Part shown: in pieces, positions 14,898 to 33,801 of the stretch
How the letters are laid out: each line of letters opens with the position of its first letter
Position numbering within the stretch: position 1 is the first letter of the stretch
Assembly: GCA_016756725.1 (NCBI GenBank)
Contig: JAESII010000004.1
Span: 723,482 to 787,481, forward strand
Source: Synergistaceae bacterium
GTDB taxonomy: Bacteria; Synergistota; Synergistia; Synergistales; Aminithiophilaceae
DNA length: 64,000 nt
Direction: 5' to 3'
Notes under the pieces: model-generated
What the model was told of the DNA's origin: nothing
Databases searched by the model: none
The model's input: the letters and a program-made list of their open reading frames with translations, nothing else
Program-made: the position numbers and the translations under genes

Positions 14898-15239
14898 GAA
14901 AGTCACTCTCCTTTCTTCCGGATCACAATGTCATGGCGATCAGAGCGCCGGAGGGAAAAGAAGAAATTAAAACAGGAAAACCCAGAAGGAGGACCGACGG
15001 CTTCAAAAAGGACGTAACTGTAAGTAAGATATCATAGAAAGGGAAGCCCTGACAGGAAGCCGTTATGATCCACTGAGGCGAGGCTGATGTTTCTCTTGTC
15101 CGCTCCGAAGGATGCTTTGAGAACGATGAAGAGGAGGTCAATTTTTCCTTGCCTTTCTCTCTTGCTTCCCTCCTTTCGGTGGCGCTAAGGTGACCCTGTC
15201 CCCGAAAGGGAGGACAGGAAAATGAAGGAGGTGTGGCTC
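14898..15239. other. Divergent intergenic region, 342 bp
   Basis: This gap separates the minus-strand DapB-like gene from the plus-strand alcohol dehydrogenase and should hold both promoters. I see AT-richer patches near 14960-15050 and 15130-15180 but no well-spaced -35/-10 pair and no clear -24/-12 element. A GAGGAGG at about 15131 precedes only a ~14-codon TTG frame, which I do not call. No hairpin terminator or repeat is evident. Confidence 0.5.
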
Positions 15240-16388
15240 ATGCCGGGAAGCTATTTCATGCCCCCAGTCAATCTCATCGAACGGGGTGCCCTGAAGAGGA
15301 TGGGGTACTGGGCCCGTTCCCTGGGCGGGAAGAGAGCTCTCGTCGTCGCCTCCCTGGGCGACGTCGGCGAAAATCAGGGCCGGGCCGTCCTTGAGGCCCT
15401 CGAGGCGGCGGGACTGGAAGGGGAGCTCTGGGCCGGGGCCGGGCCCAACCCGACGGACCGGATGGTCGAGGAGGCGTCAGAGCGGTATGGGGCGGCGGCC
15501 TGCGATTTTCTCGTCGCCGTCGGCGGCGGCAGCGCCATGGACTGTGCCAAGGCCGTCGGCCTCGTCGTCTCCGGAGGAGGGGCGATCGCCGACTATGAGG
15601 GCCTTCACCGGTCGACGAAGGATCTGCCCCTGCTGGTGACGGTCAACACGACGGCGGGAACGGGCAGCGAGGTCACCAATGCCGCCGTCATCACCGACAC
15701 GACCCGTCAGGTCAAGATGACCCTCATCGACTGGCGCATCACCCCCCGCCTTTCGGTGAACGATCCGGAGATGATGGTCTCCATGCCGCCTCATCTGACG
15801 GCCTCGACGGGCATGGACGCCCTCTCCCACGCCGTCGAGGCCTATGTCTGCCTTCAGGCGTCGCCCATCACCGACGCCCTGGCCTACAAGGCCGTGGAGC
15901 TCATCTACCGCTGGCTGCCCCGGGCCTTCGACGACGGCGCCGACATGGAGGCACGGGAGGGGATGTGCCATGCCGCCTTCCTGGCCGGCCTGGCCTTCAG
16001 CAACTCCGGCCTGGGCTATGTCCACGCCCTCTCTCATCCTCTGAGCGCACGCTACGACCTGCCCCACGGCGTCGTCAACGCCGTTCTGCTCCCCGCCGTG
16101 GAGCGCTTCAACCTTCCCGTCGCCGCCTCGAAGCTGGCCTCTCTGGCCCGGGCCATGGAGACGGCCCTCTCCTGGCGTTCGGAAGGGGAGAACGCCGAAC
16201 GGGCTCTGAAGGGCTTCGAGGATCTGAGAAGCCGGCTGGGTCTTCCCGGCCGCCTCGCCTCCCTGGGGGTCAGGGCTGCGGATCTGCCCGAGCTGGCCCG
16301 GGAGGCCTCGGGGGAGATCGTCGGCAAGGGGAACCCCCGCGAGGCCTCGACGGCGGCGCTGGCACAGATCTACCATGACGTTTTCTGA
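15240..16388 (+). CDS. Iron-containing alcohol dehydrogenase, PduQ-like
   Basis: 382 residues; ATG at 15240 is eight bases after AAGGAGG, so the upstream ATG at 15222 is rejected. NAD-binding GGGSAMDCAKA and TTAGTGSEVTNAAVI are present, with metal-binding histidines in MDALSHAVEAY and HALSHPLSARYDLPHG. It reduces an aldehyde to an alcohol or the reverse. Its position just ahead of the PocR-type regulators and the microcompartment operon suggests it serves as PduQ, recycling NAD by reducing propionaldehyde to propanol. No encapsulation-like helix is visible at either end, so luminal location is uncertain. Confidence 0.85.
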   Translation: MPGSYFMPPVNLIERGALKRMGYWARSLGGKRALVVASLGDVGENQGRAVLEALEAAGLEGELWAGAGPNPTDRMVEEASERYGAAACDFLVAVGGGSAMDCAKAVGLVVSGGGAIADYEGLHRSTKDLPLLVTVNTTAGTGSEVTNAAVITDTTRQVKMTLIDWRITPRLSVNDPEMMVSMPPHLTASTGMDALSHAVEAYVCLQASPITDALAYKAVELIYRWLPRAFDDGADMEAREGMCHAAFLAGLAFSNSGLGYVHALSHPLSARYDLPHGVVNAVLLPAVERFNLPVAASKLASLARAMETALSWRSEGENAERALKGFEDLRSRLGLPGRLASLGVRAADLPELAREASGEIVGKGNPREASTAALAQIYHDVF

Positions 16389-19378: not shown

Positions 19379-19465
19379 CTTGATTGGACAAGTATACGGC
19401 TGCCGCGGTGAATGCCTCCGGCCCTTTCAGCGGGCAGACTGATAGAGACGGAAGGAGGGAAGGCC

Positions 19466-19807
19466 GTGATCGACGAGAAGCGACGGGTCATCCAGGAATA
19501 TGTCCCCGGCAAGCAGGTCACCCTGGCCCACGTCATCTGCAATCCCCGGAGGGAGCTCTGCGACCGGATCGGTGTCGACAATCACGGTGCCATCGGCGTC
19601 ATGACCATCACGCCCGGAGAAGGGGCCGTCATCGCCGCCGACATCGCCGGCAAGGCCGCCCCGGTCCACCTCGAGTTCGTCGACCGTTTCACGGGCTGTC
19701 TCATGGTCACTGGCGACGTCTCCTCCGTCGAGAGGGCCCTGGACGCCACCGTCGGCGCCCTTCAGTCCCTCCTCGGTTTCTACCCCGCCGGGATCACCCG
19801 CTCGTGA
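19466..19807 (+). CDS. pduU: Circularly permuted BMC shell protein, PduU/EutS type
   Basis: 113 residues; GTG at 19466 is seven bases after AAGGAGG. The N-terminal VIQEYVPGKQVTLAHVI, the AIGVMTITPGEGAVIAADIA segment and FVDRFTGCLMVTGDVSSVE are diagnostic of the permuted PduU/EutS hexamer family, which forms shell facets with a small beta-barrel over the pore. First gene of the microcompartment operon, overlapping the next gene by four bases. Confidence 0.92.
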   Translation: MIDEKRRVIQEYVPGKQVTLAHVICNPRRELCDRIGVDNHGAIGVMTITPGEGAVIAADIAGKAAPVHLEFVDRFTGCLMVTGDVSSVERALDATVGALQSLLGFYPAGITRS

Positions 19808-20280
19808 AGTCGCGCCTCATGGTCATGGGGCCCACGGGAGCCGGCAAGTCAACCCTCCTGGCGGCCCTGGGCGGTTCGCAGGAAGTGGCGAAAAAGACCG
19901 AATCCGTCGTCTTCACCGACAGCTCCGTCGATACGCCCGGCGAGGCCTTCGACATGCCCCGTCTCTATTTCATCCTCATCAACAGCGCCGTCAAGTCGGG
20001 CCTGGTCCTGCTCGTGGCCGACGCCACGAGGCCCCGGTTCTTCCCGGCCGGATTCACTAAAGTCATGAAGGGCCCCGTCATCGGGGTCATCAACAAGATT
20101 GACGTCGCCGGGGAGGCGGGGATCGACCTCTCCCGGCGGGCGCTCAAAGTCGCGGGAGTGAAGGAGGTTTTCGCCGTATCGGGAAAGGGAGGTCAGGGCC
20201 TCGAAGCGTTGAAAGCCCGTATCGAAGAAATCCTAGGGAGGTGCTGTGCGAATGAACGGAGAAGCGCTCGGATTGATTGA
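19804..20280 (+). CDS. pduV: PduV/EutP-family small GTPase
   Basis: 158 residues starting at a GTG that overlaps the pduU stop (GTGA). P-loop [10 protein letters not shown]3 region DTPGE and G4 NKID are visible; a [11 protein letters not shown] segment fits G5. PduV/EutP are Ras-like GTPases linked to microcompartment positioning or biogenesis; the exact role is unsettled. The last ~28 bases overlap the following shell gene. Confidence 0.9.
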
Positions 20281-21396: not shown

Positions 21397-23079
21397 GTGA
21401 AGGCAGTGGCTGTGAACAAAAAGAGCAAGCGTTTCGAGATACTTCGTCAGCGTGACGTCCACAAGGACGGCTTCATCGGCGAGTGGAAAGAGGTCGGCCT
21501 CATCGCCATGGGCAGTCCCAACGACCCCAGGCCGTCGATCCGCATCGAAGGCGGGAAAGTCGTCGAGATGGACGGCAAGAAGAGAGCCGACTTTGACATG
21601 ATCGAACAGTTCGTCGCCGACTACTGCATCGACAGTTCCGTTGCCGAGGAGGCCATGGCCAAATCGGAGAAGGAGCTAGCCCACATGCTCGTCGACGTCG
21701 ACGTCTGCGCCAAGGAGATCCGCCGGATCTTCCTCGGCCTCACTCCGGCCAAGCTGTCGGCCGTTCTCGACTGCCTCAACATCGTCGAAATCATGATGGC
21801 CATGCAGAAGATGCGGGTCCGTCAGATGCCGGGCAACCAGGCCCATATCACCAGCGCCACCGACAACCCCATCGCCCTGGCCTGCGACGCCGCCGAGGCG
21901 GCCTACCGGGGCTTCCTCGAGATCGAGACGACGGTGGCCGTCACCCGCTATGCCGCCTTGAATGCCCTCTCCCTCCTCGTCGGCGGTCAGGTGGGACGGC
22001 CCGGGATCCTCTCCCAGGATGCCCTGGAGGAGTCCTTTGAACTTCAGATCGGCATGAAGGGTCTCACGGCCTATGCCGAGACCGTCTCCGTCTACGGCAC
22101 GGAGAGCGTCTTCGTCGACGGTGACGACACGCCCTGGTCCAAGTCCTTCCTCGCCTCGGCCTATGCCAGCCGGGGGTTGAAGATGCGTTTCACTAGCGGC
22201 ACCGGCAGCGAGGTGCAGATGGGCGCTGCCGAGGGCAAGAGCATGCTCTACCTTGAGGCCAAGTGCGTCATGATCACCAAGGGAGCCGGCGTCCAGGGCC
22301 TCCAGAACGGCTCCATCTCCTGCATCGGCGTTCCCGGGGCCGTACCCAGCGGCATCCGGGCCGTCGCCGCCGAAAACCTCCTCACCATGATCCTGGGCCT
22401 GGAGGTCGCCTCGGGCAACGACCAGACCTTCTCCCACTCCGACCTGCGCCGCACGGCCCGAACGATCCCGCAGCTCTTTGCCGGAACGGACCTCATCTTC
22501 TCCGGCTACTCGGGCGTTCCCAATTACGACAACATGTTTGCCGGTTCCAACTGGGACATCGAAGATGTCGACGACTACCTGGCCCTCCAGCGTGACTTCC
22601 GCATCGACGGCGGCCTGCGCCCCGTCCTGGAGGCCGACGTCATCGCCGTGCGCAACAAGGCAGCCCGGGCCCTCCAGGCCGTCTACGACGAGCTGGGCTT
22701 CCCGGCCATCACCGACGACGAGGTCGAGGCGGGGACCTACGCCAACGGCAGCAAGGACATGCCGCCCCGCAACATCCCCGAAGACCTTAAGGCCGCCGAG
22801 CGGATCATGAAAGAGGGCATCACGGCCGTCGACGTCATCAAGGCCCTGGCCAAGAGGGGCTTCCGTGACGTGGCCGAGGCCCTGGTCATGATGATGCGTC
22901 AGCACGTCTCCGGCGACTACCTCCAGACCTCGGCCTGGATCGACAGCGAGGGCTATGTCTGGAGCGCCGTCAACGATCCCAACACCTATGCCGGGCCGGG
23001 CACGGGCTACCAGATGAGCGATGAGCGCTGGGAAGAGATCAAGGCCATTCCCTGGGCCATCAATCCTGAGGACGTCTAG
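21397..23079 (+). CDS. pduC: B12-dependent diol dehydratase, large subunit
   Basis: About 560 residues, full length. It dehydrates 1,2-propanediol or similar diols to the aldehyde by an adenosylcobalamin radical mechanism. The active-site Gln and His occur in GNQAHITSATDNP; ETTVAVTRYAALNALSLLVG, EVQMGAAEGKSMLYLEAK and SCIGVPGAVPSGIR follow the PduC/DhaB family. GTG 21397 and GTG 21406 (better spaced from AGGGGG) are both possible starts. Sequence alone does not separate diol from glycerol dehydratase with certainty; the pdu-type context favours diol. Confidence 0.95.
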   Translation: MKAVAVNKKSKRFEILRQRDVHKDGFIGEWKEVGLIAMGSPNDPRPSIRIEGGKVVEMDGKKRADFDMIEQFVADYCIDSSVAEEAMAKSEKELAHMLVDVDVCAKEIRRIFLGLTPAKLSAVLDCLNIVEIMMAMQKMRVRQMPGNQAHITSATDNPIALACDAAEAAYRGFLEIETTVAVTRYAALNALSLLVGGQVGRPGILSQDALEESFELQIGMKGLTAYAETVSVYGTESVFVDGDDTPWSKSFLASAYASRGLKMRFTSGTGSEVQMGAAEGKSMLYLEAKCVMITKGAGVQGLQNGSISCIGVPGAVPSGIRAVAAENLLTMILGLEVASGNDQTFSHSDLRRTARTIPQLFAGTDLIFSGYSGVPNYDNMFAGSNWDIEDVDDYLALQRDFRIDGGLRPVLEADVIAVRNKAARALQAVYDELGFPAITDDEVEAGTYANGSKDMPPRNIPEDLKAAERIMKEGITAVDVIKALAKRGFRDVAEALVMMMRQHVSGDYLQTSAWIDSEGYVWSAVNDPNTYAGPGTGYQMSDERWEEIKAIPWAINPEDV

Positions 23080-23099
23080 GGAAAGGGGGTTGCCACAGG

Positions 23100-23753
23100 A
23101 TGAACGAGGAACTGATCCGCAAAGTCATCGCTGAGGTCATGGCCGAGGTCGCGACCGGAGAGGGAAAGAAGGCCCCTAAGGCCGAACTTTCCGCCCCCGC
23201 CGCGGGGATCAAGATCACCGAGCTCGAAAAGGCGACGAAGGGGACCAGTCCCAAGGAGGTCGTCTTGGCCGTCACGCCTGGCTTCGGCGTCCACTTCCAG
23301 GGAACCATCGTCGACGTCCCCCATGGCGAGGTCATCCGCCAGATCATGGCCGGCGTCGAGGAAGAAGGGCTCACCTGCCGGGTTATCCGGGTCTACCACA
23401 CGGCCGACGTGGCCTTCATGGCTCACTACGCCGCCAAGCTCTCCGGCTCGGGGATCGGAATCGGCGTCCTCTGCCGGGGGACGTCCGTCATCCACCAGAG
23501 GGATCTGGCTCCCCTCAACAACCTGGAGCTCTTTCCCCAGTCCCCTTTGCTCGACGCCGAGGCCTTTCGCGCCATCGGCCGCAACGCCGCCAAATACGCC
23601 AAGGGCGAGCAGCCTGTCCCCGTGGCGACGCGAAACGACCCCATGGCCAGGCCTCGCTTCCAGGGGTTGGCGGCTCTCCTCCACAACAAGGAGATGCGCT
23701 ACCTCGATCGCAAGCGGCCTCCCATGGAGGTCAAAGTCGAGTTCACCCACTAG
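23100..23753 (+). CDS. pduD: Diol dehydratase medium subunit with encapsulation-type helix
   Basis: 217 residues. An N-terminal amphipathic helix (MNEELIRKVIAEVMAEV) and a Lys/Ala/Pro linker precede the conserved subunit beginning near residue 36. In Salmonella the PduD N-terminus targets the whole dehydratase to the microcompartment, and this helix has the same pattern. The conserved body includes VTPGFGVHFQGTI and VYHTADVAFMAHYAAKLSGS, which help bind the cobalamin. Confidence 0.95.
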   Translation: MNEELIRKVIAEVMAEVATGEGKKAPKAELSAPAAGIKITELEKATKGTSPKEVVLAVTPGFGVHFQGTIVDVPHGEVIRQIMAGVEEEGLTCRVIRVYHTADVAFMAHYAAKLSGSGIGIGVLCRGTSVIHQRDLAPLNNLELFPQSPLLDAEAFRAIGRNAAKYAKGEQPVPVATRNDPMARPRFQGLAALLHNKEMRYLDRKRPPMEVKVEFTH

Positions 23754-23768
23754 GGAGGAGGTGTCCCC

Positions 23769-24296
23769 ATGGCAATGGAACTGAACGAACAGATGGTGGC
23801 TGAACTGGTCCGCCAGGTTCTGAAAGGCGTCAACGGAGCTCAGGGCGCCCCGCAGGTCCAAAAGGGCCAGGGCGGCCTCGGCGCCGGCGATTTCCCCCTC
23901 GCCGCCAAGCGTCCCGATCTGCTCACCGGGCCGAGAGGCAAGAAGTTCGAGGAGTTGACCCTCGACAACGTCATGAGCGGTGCCGTGGCCTTCGAAGACT
24001 TCCGCATCACCCCCCAGGCCCTGGAGTATCAGGCCCAGGTGGCCGAGAGTGCCGGGAGCCCCCACGTGGCCCGCAACCTGCGCCGCGCCGCTGAGATGAC
24101 CCGCATCCCCGACGAGCGGGTCCTGGAGATGTACAATGCCCTGAGGCCCCACCGCTCCGATAAGGCCGAGCTTTTGGCCATGGCCGACGAGCTGGAGAAG
24201 AAGTACGAGGCCAAAATCTGTGCTGCCTTCGTCAGGGAGGCCGCCGACGTCTACGAGCGCCGCCACCTCCTCAAGGGCGACCTGCCCGAGGCCTAG
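23769..24296 (+). CDS. pduE: Diol dehydratase small subunit with encapsulation-type helix
   Basis: 175 residues. A further amphipathic N-terminal helix (NEQMVAELVRQVLKGV) and a Gly/Gln-rich linker lead into the small-subunit fold (DFPLAAKRPDLLTGPRGKKF, SGAVAFEDFRITPQALEYQA, ARNLRRAAEMTRIPDERVLE). A good ribosome-binding site (GGGAGGAGG) precedes the ATG. With two targeted subunits per protomer, the dehydratase carries multiple encapsulation tags. Confidence 0.95.
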   Translation: MAMELNEQMVAELVRQVLKGVNGAQGAPQVQKGQGGLGAGDFPLAAKRPDLLTGPRGKKFEELTLDNVMSGAVAFEDFRITPQALEYQAQVAESAGSPHVARNLRRAAEMTRIPDERVLEMYNALRPHRSDKAELLAMADELEKKYEAKICAAFVREAADVYERRHLLKGDLPEA

Positions 24297-24323: not shown

Positions 24324-26156
24324 GTGCCCATCGTCGCAGGAATCGACATCGGAAACTCGACGACGGAGGTCGCCCTCGCCCGCGTGGAGGGCCGGGACAT
24401 CACTTTCCTGGCCTCGGCCCTCCATCCCACCACCGGCATCAAGGGGACCGTCCAGAACGTGCGGGGCGTCCTCCTCGCCCTGAGCAAGGCCCTTGAGGCT
24501 GCCGGAAGGGGCCGCGATGACTTCCGTTTTGTCGACCTGATCCGCCTCAACGAGGCCGCTCCCGTCATCGGCGACGTGGCCATGGAGACGGTGACGGAGA
24601 CGATCATCACCGAATCGACCATGATCGGCCACAATCCCAGCACCCCCGGCGGCGTCGGCATCGGCGTCGGCGAGACGATCCTCGTCGACGATCTCGCCGA
24701 CGCACCTGAAGGCAAGGCCCTAGTCGTCGTCATTCCCGCCTCTTGGGACTACGAAAGGGCCGCCACCGCCCTGGGCCAGGCCCGGGACCGGGGCCTGGCC
24801 GTAAAGGCCGCCATCTGCCAGAGCGACGACGGCGTCCTCATCGCCAACAGGCTTCCTTCTCCCGTTCCGATCGTCGACGAGGTGCGGGCCATCGACCGCG
24901 TCCCCCTGGGGATGCCCTGCTGCGTCGAGGTCGCCCCGCCGGGCCGGGTCGTCGAAGTCCTGGCCAACCCCTACGATGTGGCCACCCTCTTCGGCCTCTC
25001 GCCCGAGGAGACCCGCCAGATCGTTCCCGTCACGCGGGCCCTCGTGGGCAACCGCTCGGCCGTCGTCATCCGGACGCCTCTGGGCGAGGTGAAGGAACGG
25101 TCCATCCCGGCCGGCGAGCTCTACGTCGAAGGGCCGGCGGGACGGCGGACCCTCAACGTCGAGGAGGGCGCCCGGGCCATCATGGCCCTCGTCGCGGAGA
25201 GCGAGCCCCTCAAGGACGTCTTCGGCCAGCCCGGCACCAACGTGGGCGGCATGATGGAGCGGGTCCGGCGCACCATGTCGAACCTGACGGGCATTCCCAT
25301 CGGTGACGTCCACATCCGGGACCTCCTCGCCGTGGATACCCTCGTTCCCCAGAAGGTCGTCGGCGGACTGGCCGACGAATTCTCCCAGGAAAGCGGCGTC
25401 GCCCTGGCCGTCATGGTCGAGACGAAGGAGCTCCCCATGAAGCACCTCGCCGAGGCCGTCCAGGCCGAGGCGGGCGTCGCCGTCGAGATCGGCGGCGTTG
25501 AGGCCGAAATGGCCATCAACGGCGCCCTCACCACGCCGGGGACGAAACCGCCTCTGGCCATCATCGACCTCGGAGCGGGGAGCACCGACGCCTCGCTGAT
25601 GAGGGAAAACGGCACCGTCGAGCTGATCCATCTCGCCGGGGCCGGCAACATGGTCAACACCATCATCGCCAGCGAACTCGGTTTCGACGATCCCGAACTG
25701 GCCGAGTCGATCAAACGCTACCCTCTCTGCAAGGTGGAGAGCGTCTTTCACATCCGCCAGGAAGACGGAACGGTCCGCTTCTTCGACCGCCCTCTGGAAC
25801 CCCATCTTTTCGGTCGCGTCGCCCTCATCGTCGAAGGGGATCTGCTCCAGCCCGTCCCCCTGAGGACGACGATGGAAAAGGTCCGTCAGGTGCGGCGAAA
25901 GGCCAAGGGGGAGGTCTTCGTGACCAACGCCGTGCGGGCTCTGGAAAGGGTTGCCCCCGCCAGGAACGTGCGTCTTCTCGATCATGTCGTCCTCGTCGGC
26001 GGGTCGGCCCTGGACTTCGAGATCCCCACGATGATCACCGACGCCCTCTCCCGTTACGGCGTCGTCTCGGGGCGTGGAAACATCCGCGGCGTCGAGGGAC
26101 CGAGAAACGCCGTCGCCACCGGTCTCGTCCTGACCTGCCGGAGGCAGGGGCCATGA
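24324..26156 (+). CDS. pduG: Diol dehydratase reactivase, large subunit
   Basis: 610 residues, full length, GTG start. The reactivase uses ATP to exchange damaged cobalamin on the dehydratase. The actin/Hsp70-like fold shows GIDIGNSTTEVALARVE at the start and LAIIDLGAGSTDASLM mid-chain, with the family's RTPLGEVKERSIPAGEL region and a C-terminal VVLVGGSALDFEIP. Overlaps pduH by four bases (ATGA). Confidence 0.95.
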   Translation: MPIVAGIDIGNSTTEVALARVEGRDITFLASALHPTTGIKGTVQNVRGVLLALSKALEAAGRGRDDFRFVDLIRLNEAAPVIGDVAMETVTETIITESTMIGHNPSTPGGVGIGVGETILVDDLADAPEGKALVVVIPASWDYERAATALGQARDRGLAVKAAICQSDDGVLIANRLPSPVPIVDEVRAIDRVPLGMPCCVEVAPPGRVVEVLANPYDVATLFGLSPEETRQIVPVTRALVGNRSAVVIRTPLGEVKERSIPAGELYVEGPAGRRTLNVEEGARAIMALVAESEPLKDVFGQPGTNVGGMMERVRRTMSNLTGIPIGDVHIRDLLAVDTLVPQKVVGGLADEFSQESGVALAVMVETKELPMKHLAEAVQAEAGVAVEIGGVEAEMAINGALTTPGTKPPLAIIDLGAGSTDASLMRENGTVELIHLAGAGNMVNTIIASELGFDDPELAESIKRYPLCKVESVFHIRQEDGTVRFFDRPLEPHLFGRVALIVEGDLLQPVPLRTTMEKVRQVRRKAKGEVFVTNAVRALERVAPARNVRLLDHVVLVGGSALDFEIPTMITDALSRYGVVSGRGNIRGVEGPRNAVATGLVLTCRRQGP

Positions 26157-26659
26157 ATCCCTGGTGCCGTCCCCTCAAGGACGCCCCGACGGACCGGCCC
26201 GCCGTGACGCTCCTCGCCGCTCCGTCCGTCCCTGAAGAGGCCATCGGGGCCCTCGGTGCCGGAAGCGAGGAGGAGGGCATCCCCCTCGTCTGGGAGCGCC
26301 TCGACGGCGAGGCCTCCGCTCTGGCCCGGGAGGCGGCCCGCCGGTCCCGCCTGGAGGTGGGCATCGGTCTCGACGGCCGGGCCGCCTCGGTGACGCCCGC
26401 CAAGTTTCCCGAGGAGCGGGGAGTCTACCTTCACGAAGAGGGACCGGACCTTCCCCTCCGCTGGATCGGCCAGGCCGCGGCGTGCCTTGTCAAGGGCGAG
26501 CCTCTGCCGCCGAAGATGAAGGAGGGCCAGTCCCCAGCCGGTTTGCCTGTCCCGGAGCCGATGGCGACTCTGGAGGAGGAAGACAGCGAAGAAGAGGCCC
26601 TCGTCGCGGCCGTGACCCGGATCGTGATGGAGGCATTGGAGAAGGAAAGGAGGCGGTGA
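26153..26659 (+). CDS. pduH: Diol dehydratase reactivase, small subunit with C-terminal helix
   Basis: 168 residues, about 50 longer than typical PduH. Residues 1-125 are the usual swapped-subunit fold (RPAVTLLAAPSVPEEAIGAL, ARRSRLEVGIGLDGRAA, YLHEEGPDLPLRWIGQAAA). A flexible Pro/Glu linker then leads to an amphipathic helix at the very end (EALVAAVTRIVMEALEK). That helix matches the pattern of the encapsulation helices on PduB, D, E and P but sits at the C-terminus. I infer it recruits the reactivase into the microcompartment. It ends six bases before the next shell gene's ATG. Confidence 0.88.
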   Translation: MNPWCRPLKDAPTDRPAVTLLAAPSVPEEAIGALGAGSEEEGIPLVWERLDGEASALAREAARRSRLEVGIGLDGRAASVTPAKFPEERGVYLHEEGPDLPLRWIGQAAACLVKGEPLPPKMKEGQSPAGLPVPEPMATLEEEDSEEEALVAAVTRIVMEALEKERRR

Positions 26660-27400: not shown

Positions 27401-27712
27401 ATGGCCCAGGAAGCTCTCGGCTTGATTGAGACAAAGGGTTTTGTCGGCGCCGTCGAGGCCGCTGACGCCATGGTCAAGGCCGCCAATGTCACCCTCGTCG
27501 GGTCGAAACTCACCGGTGGCGGCCTCGTGACGGTCATGGTCCGCGGCGACGTGGGGGCCGTGAAGGCCGCCGTCGACGCCGGTTCGGCCGCGGCGGGACG
27601 GGTGGGCGAGCTCGTCTCGACTCACGTCATCCCCAGGCCCCACGGCGACACGGAAAAGATGCTGCCCTTCGGCGATCAGCCGGCCGAATCGGTCGACGTC
27701 GCCAAGGATTAG
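27401..27712 (+). CDS. pduJ: BMC-H shell protein with altered pore motif (PduJ/EutM type)
   Basis: 103 residues. Nearly identical to the shell protein at 20252 over its first 35 residues and after the pore ([34 protein letters not shown]), but the pore loop reads SKLTGGGLV instead of EKIGSGYV. It also has a ~12-residue acidic tail ([12 protein letters not shown]). Probably a duplicated gene whose hexamers have a different channel. Confidence 0.93.
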
Positions 27713-27735
27713 CGCTTCGGACGGAGAGCGACGCA

Positions 27736-27960
27736 GTGGCCTGGGATCGGACCGTCGTCGGGGGAGTGATCCGGGAGGTTCTCCAAAAGATGGAGCCCCT
27801 CTTGCAATCCCCGTCGGGAGGGGCTGGCGCCGCTTCCGTCATCGTCGACCCCGACGAGGCTGCCGTGGCGGGCCTGCACCCCGGAGACCGGGTCCCGATC
27901 CTTCAGGGAATCCTTCCCCTGCGCCGCCGATCGCCCCTGGCCGCCGGGAGCCTGTCATGA
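27736..27960 (+). CDS. Mini-gene: encapsulation-type helix plus short PduL-like tail
   Basis: 74 residues. GTG 27736 is seven bases after GGAGAG, and the stop overlaps the eutJ ATG (ATGA), so it looks like a genuine translated gene. Residues 6-23 (TVVGGVIREVLQKMEPLL) form the same amphipathic helix as the cargo enzymes. Then VDPDEAAVAGLHPGDRV resembles the end of PduL phosphotransacylases (MHIDTDEANA...GD). PduL also begins with an encapsulation helix and belongs at about this operon position. The whole catalytic middle, including the zinc-binding HxHxS repeats, is absent. I read it as an internally deleted pduL, or a new small adaptor. Confidence in the family link is low. Confidence 0.55.
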   Translation: MAWDRTVVGGVIREVLQKMEPLLQSPSGGAGAASVIVDPDEAAVAGLHPGDRVPILQGILPLRRRSPLAAGSLS

Positions 27961-28817
27961 CCTGTCTTTGGCTCACTCCGGAACTGGAGGCCTGCGCCAG
28001 AGCCCTTGAAAGTCCCAGGGCCCTGGCGCCGTGGAAACGACTTTATCTCGGCTTCGATCTGGGCACGACCAATCTCGTCATCGTCGCCCTCAACGAGGAG
28101 GGCCAGCCCGTTTCCGCCGTCCTGGAGCCCTCGTCCTCGTCGGTCCGAGACGGCGTCGTCGTCGATTACATGGCCGCCCTTCAGGGGATGAAACGGGCCC
28201 TGGAGCGACTGCGCCAGAAGCTCGGTGACGGTCTCACCCGAGCCGTGGGGGCCGCCGCCTACCCGCCGGGCGTCTCGCTCAAGACGGCCAAGGTCTGTGC
28301 CAACGTCGTCGAAAGCCTCGGTTACGACTGCCTCGGTCTCTATGAGGAGCCGACGGCCGCCGCGGCGGCCCTGGGCCTGACGGAAGGGGCCATCGTCGAC
28401 ATCGGCGGCGGGACGACGGGCATCGCCGTCCTCGACGGAGGCGAAGTCCGCTACAGTGCCGACGAACCCACGGGAGGGACGCACATGACCCTCGTCATCG
28501 CCGGGAGCCGGAACCTCACCCTCGACGAGGCGGAACGGCTCAAGCGGGATCGGCGGGAGCAGAAAGGGCTGATGCCCACACTCCGGCCCGTCCTGGAAAA
28601 GATGGGCACCATCGCCCGGAACCATCTCCTCCGAAGCGGAGCCCTCGGCCGCGTTCCCGTCGTCGTCGTCGGCGGCGGGGCCGATCTGCCCGGGGCGGAA
28701 GAGATCCTTGCCGACGTCGTCGGCCACCCCGTCTCCCTCGCCCCGGAACCTCTGCTTGTGACGCCTTTGGGCATCGCTCTCAATCTCTGGAGGGATCACC
28801 ATGACGACGACCGGTAA
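27957..28817 (+). CDS. eutJ: EutJ-type Hsp70-like chaperone
   Basis: 286 residues with the actin/Hsp70 nucleotide fold: FDLGTTNLVIVAL (phosphate 1), IVDIGGGTTGIAVLDGG (phosphate 2), EEPTAAAAALGL, and VPVVVVGGGADLPGAEEIL (adenosine). EutJ is a presumed ATP-dependent chaperone or reactivation factor of microcompartments. Its presence among pdu-type genes shows the operon mixes eut and pdu parts. Overlaps the mini-gene by four bases and the next gene by 17. Confidence 0.9.
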   Translation: MTCLWLTPELEACARALESPRALAPWKRLYLGFDLGTTNLVIVALNEEGQPVSAVLEPSSSSVRDGVVVDYMAALQGMKRALERLRQKLGDGLTRAVGAAAYPPGVSLKTAKVCANVVESLGYDCLGLYEEPTAAAAALGLTEGAIVDIGGGTTGIAVLDGGEVRYSADEPTGGTHMTLVIAGSRNLTLDEAERLKRDRREQKGLMPTLRPVLEKMGTIARNHLLRSGALGRVPVVVVGGGADLPGAEEILADVVGHPVSLAPEPLLVTPLGIALNLWRDHHDDDR

Positions 28818-29469
28818 CCTCGTCTCCCTCGTCCTGGAACGGCTGCGCCTGCCCCGGGTGGGCCTGCTCTGGTGGCATGAGACGGCGCCTCACCGCTTCG
28901 CCCCTCCTCCCGGTGTCACCTGGGTCCACTATCTGGCGCCGGGGTGCGTCTTCCCCCGCGAGCTCCGCCCCGCCTACCGCCTTGCCGCTCTGAAGGCGCC
29001 CGAGGAGGAGGCCGGAACGCTCCGTATGCTGGCCGTGCCGGCGGCAAGGATCGAGCTCCTGGCCGATCTCCTTTCGGGGCTGCCAGCCTCTCCCGAAGGA
29101 CGCCTCGTCGCAGGCTGTCTCGGCGCCGGCCTGCCCGTCGTCGTCGATGTTTCGGCCCTGGCCTCCCGGAGCCGGTGGACGGGGGCCATCGGCAACGGAC
29201 ACCGGGAGGCTCTGGGCCGCCTCGAGGCTCTGGGCTGCCTTCTCCTTCGGGGGGAGATGTCCCCGGCCTCCCCAACTTCGCCGGTCACCGTCGGCGAGAG
29301 GACGGCACCGGATGTCCTCGTCGTCGATGAGCCGGGATGGCTGAGCTGGAGGGAGCTCGCCCCGAGGCTCGGCGGCAGGCGCGCCGTCAGCATCGGCCCG
29401 GAGGTGCGGCTCACCGCCGAAGCCCGGGACCGATTGAGGCAGCACAGGATCGCCCTGAAGGAGGGATAG
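28801..29469 (+). CDS. PduM-like microcompartment assembly protein (tentative)
   Basis: 222 residues. There is no strong motif. The middle (AARIELLADLLSGLP, then CLGAGLPVVVDVSAL) resembles the PduM-type pattern of a helix followed by a small Rossmann-like strand, and the C-terminus (RRAVSIGPEVRLTAEARDRL) resembles the end of that family. The location after eutJ and before the BMC-P gene also fits. PduM is needed for normal shell assembly in Salmonella but has no known activity. Overlaps eutJ by 17 bases. Confidence 0.5.
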   Translation: MTTTGNLVSLVLERLRLPRVGLLWWHETAPHRFAPPPGVTWVHYLAPGCVFPRELRPAYRLAALKAPEEEAGTLRMLAVPAARIELLADLLSGLPASPEGRLVAGCLGAGLPVVVDVSALASRSRWTGAIGNGHREALGRLEALGCLLLRGEMSPASPTSPVTVGERTAPDVLVVDEPGWLSWRELAPRLGGRRAVSIGPEVRLTAEARDRLRQHRIALKEG

Positions 29470-31060: not shown

Positions 31061-32458
31061 ATGGATTCCAAGGACCTCGCCCAGATCGTCAGACAGGTCC
31101 TGGCGCGCCTGGAACGGGAGATGGACTCCGCAGGGGGCGGGGGCTGTCCCTACGGCTTCAGCGCCGTTGACGAGGCCGTCGAGGCCGCGGCGACGGCTCA
31201 GACGACCTGGCACAGGGACTTCAATATCCAGGCCAAGTCGAAGATCATCGCCGGTCTCAGAAAGGATCTCCTCGATCATCTCGAGGAGCTGGCCCGCCTC
31301 GCCCTGGAGGATACGGGCATGGGCCGCCTCGACGACAAGATCCTAAAAAAAGAGCTGGCCATCACGAGGACGCCGGGCCCCGAATACTTCACCACCAAGG
31401 CCGTCTCCGGCGACAACGGCCTCGTCCTGGAGGAGCTCGCCCCCTTCGGCGTCATCGCCTCGATCACGCCCTCGACCAATCCCGTGGCTTCGGTCATCAA
31501 CAACACCATCGCCATGATCGCCGGCGGCAACGCCGTCGTCTTCGCCCCCCACCCTGGCGCGAAACGGTCGACCCTCCGGGCCGTGGAGATCATCAACGAA
31601 TCCCTGGGCCGCCAGGGGGCGCCCTGCGGCCTGGTGACGACGCTGACGGCGATCAGCATGGAGAACGTCGACCATCTCATGAAGCACCCCAAGGTGCGTC
31701 TCGTCGCCGCCACGGGCGGCCCCGGCGTGGTCCACGCGGCCCTCAGCTCGGGGAAGCCCGCCATCGGCGCCGGCCCGGGCAACCCGCCCGTCGTCGTCGA
31801 CGAGACGGCCCATCTTCGCCAGGCCGCCATCGACGTCATCCTGGGCTGCTCCTTCGACAACAACCTGCCCTGCACGTCCGAGAAGGAACTCATCGTCGTC
31901 AACTGCGTCGCCGAGGAGCTCAAGAGGCACATGCTCGAAAACGGCGCTCACGAGCTCAAGGCGGCCTCGGAGATCGGAAAGCTGCGCGATCTCGTCTTCG
32001 ACGACAAGGGTAAGCCTGACAAAAGCTGCGTCGGCAAGGACGCGACGTGGCTTCTCAGGAAGATCGGCGTCGTCGTCCCGGCCAAGACGCGGGTCATCCT
32101 CATCGAGTGCGACGAGCAGGACCCCTTCGTCCAGGAGGAGATGCTCATGCCCATCCTGCCTTTGGTGCGCGTCGCCGATTTCGACGAGGCCCTGGCCATG
32201 GCCCTCCGCGTCGAGCATGGCTTCCGCCACTCGGCGGCGATTCACAGCACCAACATCGACAACATGAGCCTCATGGCTCGTCTCATGGAGACGACGATCT
32301 TCACGAAGAACGCTCCCTCCTTCGCCTCCCTGGGCTATGGAGGAGACTGCCCGACGGCCTTCACCATCGCCACCTCGACGGGCCAGGGGCCGACGACGCC
32401 TCTGTCCTTCTGCCGCCTGCGGCGCTGCACCCTCCACGGCGCCTTCAGGATCATCTAG
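31061..32458 (+). CDS. pduP: CoA-acylating propionaldehyde dehydrogenase
   Basis: 465 residues from ATG 31061, eight bases after GGAGG. It oxidises propionaldehyde to propionyl-CoA with NAD and CoA. An N-terminal amphipathic helix (KDLAQIVRQVLARLEREM) is the encapsulation peptide type known for PduP. The catalytic Cys is in FDNNLPCTSEKE; APFGVIASITPSTNP and AATGGPGVV are family signatures. Its product would normally go to PduL, which is missing here as an intact gene. Confidence 0.95.
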   Translation: MDSKDLAQIVRQVLARLEREMDSAGGGGCPYGFSAVDEAVEAAATAQTTWHRDFNIQAKSKIIAGLRKDLLDHLEELARLALEDTGMGRLDDKILKKELAITRTPGPEYFTTKAVSGDNGLVLEELAPFGVIASITPSTNPVASVINNTIAMIAGGNAVVFAPHPGAKRSTLRAVEIINESLGRQGAPCGLVTTLTAISMENVDHLMKHPKVRLVAATGGPGVVHAALSSGKPAIGAGPGNPPVVVDETAHLRQAAIDVILGCSFDNNLPCTSEKELIVVNCVAEELKRHMLENGAHELKAASEIGKLRDLVFDDKGKPDKSCVGKDATWLLRKIGVVVPAKTRVILIECDEQDPFVQEEMLMPILPLVRVADFDEALAMALRVEHGFRHSAAIHSTNIDNMSLMARLMETTIFTKNAPSFASLGYGGDCPTAFTIATSTGQGPTTPLSFCRLRRCTLHGAFRII

Positions 32459-32469
32459 GAGGCCTTACG

Positions 32470-33801
32470 GTGAAGGCCGACGAGGTGATCCGCAAGGTCT
32501 ACGAGGCCGGCGTCGTGGGGGCCGGAGGGGCCGGATTCCCCACCCACGTCAAGCTTCAGGCCCGAAAGATCGACACCTACCTCATCAACGGGGCCGAATG
32601 CGAGCCCCTCCTGGCCGGCGACCAGCACCTCATGAGGGAAAAGGCCGCCTTCCTTCAGAACGCGGCCGAGACGGTCCGCGGCGCCCTGGGGGCGGAAAGG
32701 GCCCTTTTCGTGATCAAGAAGAAGCACGTCGCCGAAAGGCAGGCCCTGGAGGCGGCGGGGGCGGCTGTGGCCGTCATGGGCGACTACTATCCCGCCGGCG
32801 ATGAGGTGATCCTCATCGAGGAGGTGACGGGTCGGATCGTCCCCGAAGGCGGCCTGCCCCTGGCCGTCGGCGTCGTCGTCAACAACGTCGAGACCCTCTA
32901 CAACATCGGCCGGGCCCTGGAGGGGATCCCCGTCACGAGAAGCTGGGTCACCGTGAGCGGCGCCGTCCGCGAGCCCGGCCTCTGGCTCGTCCCCCTGGGC
33001 ACGCCGGCGTCTAAGCTCCTTGAGCTGGCCGGCGGTCCGACGGAGGACGATCCCTGGTATGTCGACGGCGGTCCCATGACCGGTCCCTACCACAGGGAGC
33101 CCGATTTCCTCGTCACCAAGACGAGCAACGCCCTCCTCGTCCTGCCGGGCCGGTCCGCCCTCGTCCGGTACGAGACGATGGACCTGGAGCGCATGATCCG
33201 CCAAGCCCGCTTTGCCTGCATCCAATGCAACCAGTGCACCGTCGCCTGTTCGCGGAACCTCGCCGGCTACAACCTGGAGCCGCACCGGATCATGCGGGCC
33301 ATGGCCTATCCCGAGCAGAGGACGGAGGCCGTCCTCCGCCAGGCCTTCCTCTGCAGCGACTGCAACCTCTGCAGCGGTCTCCACGCCTGCCCCATGCAGC
33401 TTTCGCCCCGTCGGGTCAACCAGGAGCTCAAGAAAGCCCTCCGTTCCCAGGGCGTGACGCCCGATTTCCCGGCGCGAGAAATCCGGCCCCATCCCATGCG
33501 TCCCTACCGCCTGGCCTCGACGAACCGCCTTCTCTTCCGCCTCGGCCTGGCCGGCTACGACGGCCATCCCCCCTTCCGGGGCGAGGTGGCCGTCGATGAG
33601 GTCTTCCTTCCCCTCAGGCAGCATCTGGGTGCCCCCTGCCTTCCTCTTGTCGCCGTCGGCGACGTCGTCGACGAGGGGCAGGTCGTCGGGGAACCCCCCG
33701 AGGGAGCTCTGGGCGCCCCTCTTCACGCCTCCCTGGCCGGCAGGGTGGAGGAGGTCTCCGAGAGGGGCCTGAAGATCCGATCGATCAGGACGGAGGGATA
33801 A
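32470..33801 (+). CDS. pduS: Cobalamin reductase PduS (RnfC-like iron-sulfur flavoprotein)
   Basis: 443 residues; GTG 32470 is seven bases after AGGAGG. N-terminal RnfC/SLBB-type region (GAGGAGFPTHVKLQ, LINGAECEPLL) and two [4Fe-4S] sites, CIQCNQCTVAC and CSDCNLCSGLHACPM. It reduces cob(II)alamin to cob(I)alamin for PduO, drawing on NADH. The C-terminus has a lipoyl/barrel-sandwich-like region typical of RnfC proteins. It works with PduT, which follows. Confidence 0.94.
   Translation: MKADEVIRKVYEAGVVGAGGAGFPTHVKLQARKIDTYLINGAECEPLLAGDQHLMREKAAFLQNAAETVRGALGAERALFVIKKKHVAERQALEAAGAAVAVMGDYYPAGDEVILIEEVTGRIVPEGGLPLAVGVVVNNVETLYNIGRALEGIPVTRSWVTVSGAVREPGLWLVPLGTPASKLLELAGGPTEDDPWYVDGGPMTGPYHREPDFLVTKTSNALLVLPGRSALVRYETMDLERMIRQARFACIQCNQCTVACSRNLAGYNLEPHRIMRAMAYPEQRTEAVLRQAFLCSDCNLCSGLHACPMQLSPRRVNQELKKALRSQGVTPDFPAREIRPHPMRPYRLASTNRLLFRLGLAGYDGHPPFRGEVAVDEVFLPLRQHLGAPCLPLVAVGDVVDEGQVVGEPPEGALGAPLHASLAGRVEEVSERGLKIRSIRTEG

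Follow-up and report, generated by a model that had tools for sequence, protein, structure and literature searches.

The 64,000-nt stretch of Synergistaceae DNA analysed here (the window) carries an operon for a B12-dependent diol metabolosome, and a 74-codon ORF in this operon lies where related Synergistales have pduL, the gene for the phosphotransacylase PduL. This mini-gene is very probably a remnant of pduL, in a genus that is without PduL and whose compartments must therefore pass on propionyl-CoA in another way. We put the probability of the full reading, in which an internal in-frame deletion left the mini-gene, PduL was lost from the genus and acyl-CoA or CoA crosses the shell, at roughly three in four. 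A first-pass annotation had described the ORF as a collapsed PduL. Three things support this description: the position of the ORF, its two ends, which resemble those of PduL and come in the same order, and the outcome of an unbiased search.

The locus was annotated by Pfam and NCBIfam matches and by synteny, and its main features were the following.

15222–16388, + strand: iron-type alcohol dehydrogenase, candidate PduQ (PF00465 match at G000:C8:738751-739248)
19412–20280, + strand: EutS-type shell gene and EutP/PduV-type GTPase gene, start of the operon
21397–24296, + strand: pduCDE-type B12-dependent diol/glycerol dehydratase, the signature enzyme (NCBIfam)
24324–26659, + strand: dehydratase reactivase, PduG- and PduH-type (Pfam, NCBIfam)
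27401–27712, + strand: pduJ-type BMC-H shell gene, 5′ neighbour of the pduL slot (Pfam BMC, synteny)
27957–28817, + strand: eutJ-family gene, 3′ neighbour of the pduL slot (NCBIfam EutJ, synteny)
31061–32458, + strand: PduP-type acylating aldehyde dehydrogenase, the acyl-CoA source, which itself has an encapsulation-peptide-like N-terminus (Pfam, NCBIfam)
32470–33801, + strand: PduS-type flavin/Fe-S (RnfC-like) oxidoreductase

The candidate PduQ ORF is located upstream of the two-component regulator of the operon, and both are just upstream of the operon itself. The gene order in the window (S-P-A-B-C-D-E-G-H-K-J-slot-eutJ-orf222-BMC-N-O-P-S-T) is the same as in the PduL-bearing Synergistales G008/UBA5560, G011, G027, G015, G048 and G012, where pduL is found exactly between pduJ and eutJ; the mini-gene thus occupies the pduL slot of a syntenic locus. 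The 222-codon ORF between eutJ and the BMC gene (28801–29469) is kept in most such loci with 30–63% identity and had no Pfam or NCBIfam match; its position suggests a PduM-like role. We found no literature on this locus in this genus.

The mini-gene starts with GTG, and its TGA stop overlaps the ATG of eutJ as ATGA; the ribosome site and the 4-base overlap of the first-pass annotation were confirmed. Its product would begin with an encapsulation-peptide-like helix and a linker, continue with a stretch that matches the final ~22 residues of PduL and end in an unrelated extension.

27723–27726, + strand: Shine-Dalgarno-like GGAG, separated from the GTG by 9 nt (sequence)
27736–27960, + strand: mini-gene, probable pduL remnant, 74 codons plus stop (synteny, profile, search and tail tests)
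27736–27801, + strand: encapsulation-peptide-like helix, residues 1–22, MAWDRTVVGGVIREVLQKMEPL (match to PduL N-termini; helix in the AlphaFold2 model)
27835–27903, + strand: PduL C-terminal tail segment, residues 34–56, SVIVDPDEAAVAGLHPGDRVPIL (alignment; strand-helix-strand in the model)
27904–27957, + strand: C-terminal extension beyond the usual PduL stop, without a PduL match and predicted to be disordered (alignment, codon score, model)

The similarity of the tail to PduL was clear. The tail scored 56 against PduL tails, a value reached by none of 500 shuffles and by none of 1000 random frames of the window. A match to a similar internal GD motif of PduL instead of the tail was ruled out, as the score against that motif was 21. 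When the ORF starts of the window, 298 in a mechanical list, were ranked by their match to Synergistales PduL N-termini, the mini-gene came second after PduE and was followed by PduD and PduB, all of which have encapsulation-peptide-like N-termini; no shuffle out of 1500 matched the PduL N-termini as well. The targeting-type helix and the PduL-like tail noticed in the first-pass annotation were both recovered in these comparisons, yet the helix, as judged from its sequence, is encapsulation-peptide-like without being assignable to PduL over other proteins with such a peptide. The score of the mini-gene against a whole-length PduL profile was equalled by 0–1 of 5000 shuffles. A search of 183 Synergistales genomes with the mini-protein yielded 11 non-self matches, the best of which was the C-terminus of PduL in G084 (45% over 38 aa, residues 34–71; E = 0.0015 per genome); another, in G033 (47%), was likewise a PduL C-terminus, in frame. 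The likeness to PduL goes beyond chance. The mini-protein had no match in Pfam at E up to 1 or in NCBIfam at E up to 0.1, and it did not match the PTAC family (PF06130) over its full length, the 22-residue tail being the sole likeness. In a single-sequence AlphaFold2 model, which was moderately confident (mean pLDDT 68; block pLDDT 86–89 over residues 1–20), residues 5–23 formed a helix and the tail a strand-helix-strand unit, and both the linker and the extension were predicted to be disordered.

The mini-gene lacks the whole part of PduL that follows the linker, up to the final ~22 residues, and with it the metal-ligand core, as the first-pass annotation had stated; the alignment contained no core with the PduL ligands. 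Rhodopseudomonas palustris PduL has two Zn sites, one formed by His48, His50 and Glu109 and the other by His157, His159 and His204; its Asn211 is in contact with CoA (PMC4784909). Only the His204–Asn211 stretch has a counterpart in the mini-gene, where, when residues are equated by spacing and alignment, His204 is replaced by I and Asn211 by A. Among 92 PduL homologues, 89 have both the tail His and the Asn (70 by pattern and 19 read from the list). Because the core is gone and a Zn ligand and the CoA-contacting Asn are replaced, the mini-gene product, if made, would not be an enzyme and could not serve as a phosphotransacylase.

At such a high G+C content, 74 stop-free codons would occur by chance about one time in six (a rough estimate), and the frame alone is therefore unremarkable. 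The codon score of the mini-gene (0.19) was the best of its six frames; about 99% of the true gene pieces from the locus scored higher and ~95% of off-frame pieces scored lower, which is as expected for a decaying gene. When the parts were scored separately, the tail was gene-like and the first part and the extension were not. No orthologue was found in three sibling genomes (G001, G002 and G003). Short homologues across many genomes, which the first-pass annotation had named as evidence against a relation to PduL, did not appear in the search of the 183 Synergistales genomes, and a conserved small-protein family was thereby ruled out. The first-pass annotation had also concluded that the mini-gene is still translated. 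Judged from the start signals, translation is possible; it does not follow, because the siblings have lost the ORF and the codon usage is poor. Most likely the mini-gene is a relic rather than a living gene.

The window genome (G000; 13 contigs, 82.9% complete) was compared with three congeners, G001 (SV1-B2.2, JAHDQY010000032), G002 and G003 (strain L-13, CP074691), which are 98–99% complete, G002 and G003 being single-contig. A profile search detected no PF06130 gene anywhere in these four genomes and detected one in 16 of 61 Synergistales. The sampled genus is without PduL, and the earlier claim that the pathway lacks its phosphotransacylase holds for PduL across the genus. An intact PduL elsewhere, which would have spoken against that claim, was found neither in G000 nor in the siblings; of the pduL and pta genes sought in the genome, the former was absent, and Pta/Ptb-type genes (PF01515) were present outside the locus. 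The slot measures ~22 bp in G001/L057 and ~115 bp in L-13. No recognisable pduL fragment was found in the slots of the siblings, G053, L060, L062–L064 or L070, and at the nucleotide level the window slot resembled the slots of L-13 and G053 no better than shuffles did. An intact pduL at this position, named in the first-pass annotation as a thing to look for in related strains, is present in the syntenic Synergistales and absent from the three congeners examined, which had no intermediate allele either; a relic does not strictly need one.

PduL is also missing from the slot in other members of the order. No PF06130 gene was found anywhere in G053 or in the metagenome-assembled genomes (MAGs) behind L060 and L062 (completeness unstated for both), where the eutJ locus is present. 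In the MAGs behind L063–L065 the slot is empty and a divergent PduL, 42–45% identical to the in-slot type, lies elsewhere; L070 has a divergent PduL further down the locus. When eight proteins of the locus were concatenated (2,783 columns), the resulting tree grouped the genus as a single clade (support 100) with a poorly supported backbone position (34), and the PduL-bearing G008/UBA5560 was nested among lineages without in-slot PduL (supports 100 and 100). Under vertical inheritance, this nesting implies at least three losses of PduL from the slot; one loss followed by a regain into the same slot is less likely. PduL was probably lost more than once in the order.

Other variations were observed in these and related loci. 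Several Synergistaceae that lack PduL in the slot have a EutJ that is extended at its N-terminus, to differing lengths (L062, L063–L067 and L070 were surveyed). In L066 and L067, eutJ lies downstream of eutS without pdu genes, as in a satellite locus. L063 and L064 have two PduP-type aldehyde dehydrogenase matches, one on each side of pduO, which suggests a duplicated or split gene. In three loci of Pseudoramibacter/Eubacteriaceae (L095:9177-9926, L101:9234-9926 and L103:9105-9926), the pduL slot is occupied by a PduL homologue of full length whose metal ligands are replaced (HVH by HIY, HIH by SVN or SLN, and MHVD...N by LMLT/LLLT...K/Q); no other PF06130 gene was found in these genomes. By their sequences, these look like metabolosomes that came to be without active PduL by another route.

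Several observations weigh against descent from pduL. An intact frame with a good ribosome site is needless in a pure fossil and, together with the tight eutJ overlap, would suit a mini-gene that still works, its small product, an encapsulation-peptide helix plus a folded tail, having been retained as a lumen scaffold or shell-binding peptide after loss of the enzyme. Its encapsulation-peptide match equals that of PduP, and in the model the N-terminal helix is predicted with confidence, along with a small unit of strand, helix and strand. We nevertheless consider such a role unlikely, given the missing orthologue in the three siblings with their short slots, the lack of short homologues in the order, the weak codon signal and the loss of the conserved tail residues. 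Somewhat less likely still is a combination in which the metabolosome has no CoA recycling in its lumen, with acyl-CoA leaving or CoA entering, and what is left of PduL has been retained to act as a scaffold or to bind the shell.

The tail match is also short (~22 residues), no per-genome E-value improves on a weak 0.0015, the N-terminal helix scores below PduE and the sibling slots hold no recognisable pduL piece. The ORF might then be no pduL relic, only a chance frame in a G+C-rich spacer or a newborn small gene with a coincidental likeness to PduL; DNA of this kind often contains open frames as long as this one, and the homology depends on two short segments. Coincidence would, however, have to place the correct two ends in the correct order in the exact pduL slot, with a tail score beyond all shuffles and random frames and with PduL tails returned by an unbiased search, and we regard it as very improbable. 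Slimmer yet is the chance that PduL was missed in the incomplete, 13-contig assembly, or that the slot was mis-assembled, and that the pathway is complete. G064–G066 and G069 (Synergistales) do carry a divergent PduL away from the slot, but none was found in the three siblings, including the two single-contig genomes.

If the mini-gene is a pduL remnant, the ancestor would have had pduL between pduJ and eutJ, as related Synergistales do now. An internal in-frame deletion of ~150–165 codons would have placed the final ~22 residues of PduL directly after the linker that follows the encapsulation peptide, in a frame running past the usual PduL end up to the eutJ start, and the resulting peptide would be non-functional. 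PduP would yield propionyl-CoA, or its homologue from another diol; acyl-CoA (or CoA) would most likely cross the shell, and a cytosolic Ptb/Buk pair, an ADP-forming acyl-CoA synthetase or a CoA-transferase could recycle CoA.

The locus keeps the dehydratase and contains no known CoA-recycling enzyme; since the acylating aldehyde dehydrogenase, PduS and a nearby alcohol dehydrogenase are also retained, the CoA step alone is missing. Candidate enzymes are encoded outside the locus. Two phosphate butyryltransferase-like genes (PF01515) are flanked by two butyrate-kinase-like genes at about G000:C8:64,400-68,700, and there is one ADP-forming acyl-CoA synthetase-type gene. Acetate kinase is present in the siblings. 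An acetyl-CoA hydrolase/transferase-family gene (PF02550; G000:C9:404687-405211) has an internal TAG, which the G001 copy lacks. The earlier statement that no recycling route would remain was thus too strong for the cell as a whole, and metabolosomes without a PTAC are known (PMC4207490). The Ptb/Buk, acyl-CoA synthetase and acetate kinase genes also occur in PduL-bearing relatives, and therefore none is a specific replacement. Reading of the Ptb ORF sequences revealed no encapsulation peptide. With neither a specific replacement nor a targeted Ptb, passage of acyl-CoA through the shell is something that we infer.

The usual model holds that metabolosomes do not let CoA out and that PduL or EutD must recycle it inside them. 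An otherwise complete, well-conserved diol metabolosome without PduL across a genus is a natural test of this model, and with strain L-13 listed with a complete genome, the question is open to a bench test if the strain is cultured.

Compared with PduL (PTAC, PF06130), the mini-gene shares the operon slot, an encapsulation-peptide-like N-terminus, the linker and the C-terminal D-x-DEA-x-x-x-GL-x-x-GD-x-V segment, whereas no more than the last strands of the two beta-barrel domains are present, and it has none of the metal ligands and neither the tail His nor the tail Asn. The locus has the PduABCDEGHJK-NOPST content and much of the order of PDU1-type propanediol utilization loci, but differs in its EutS/EutP/EutJ-type genes, its two-component regulator and the lack of pduL. 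With an aldehyde dehydrogenase present and a PduL-type PTAC absent from locus and genome, it would encode an incomplete-core metabolosome. PTAC-less metabolosomes have been described, including one MIC locus in Synergistetes bacterium SGP1 (Axen et al. 2014, PMC4207490), and the present case therefore falls in a known class. To this class it adds the probable fossil of the PduL loss, the spread of the loss through the genus and the evidence for repeated loss in the order. Like the MIC loci, the window locus has an acylating aldehyde dehydrogenase without a PTAC; unlike them, it keeps the diol dehydratase, PduS and a nearby alcohol dehydrogenase, so that the PTAC alone is missing and the probable remnant of its gene is still visible.
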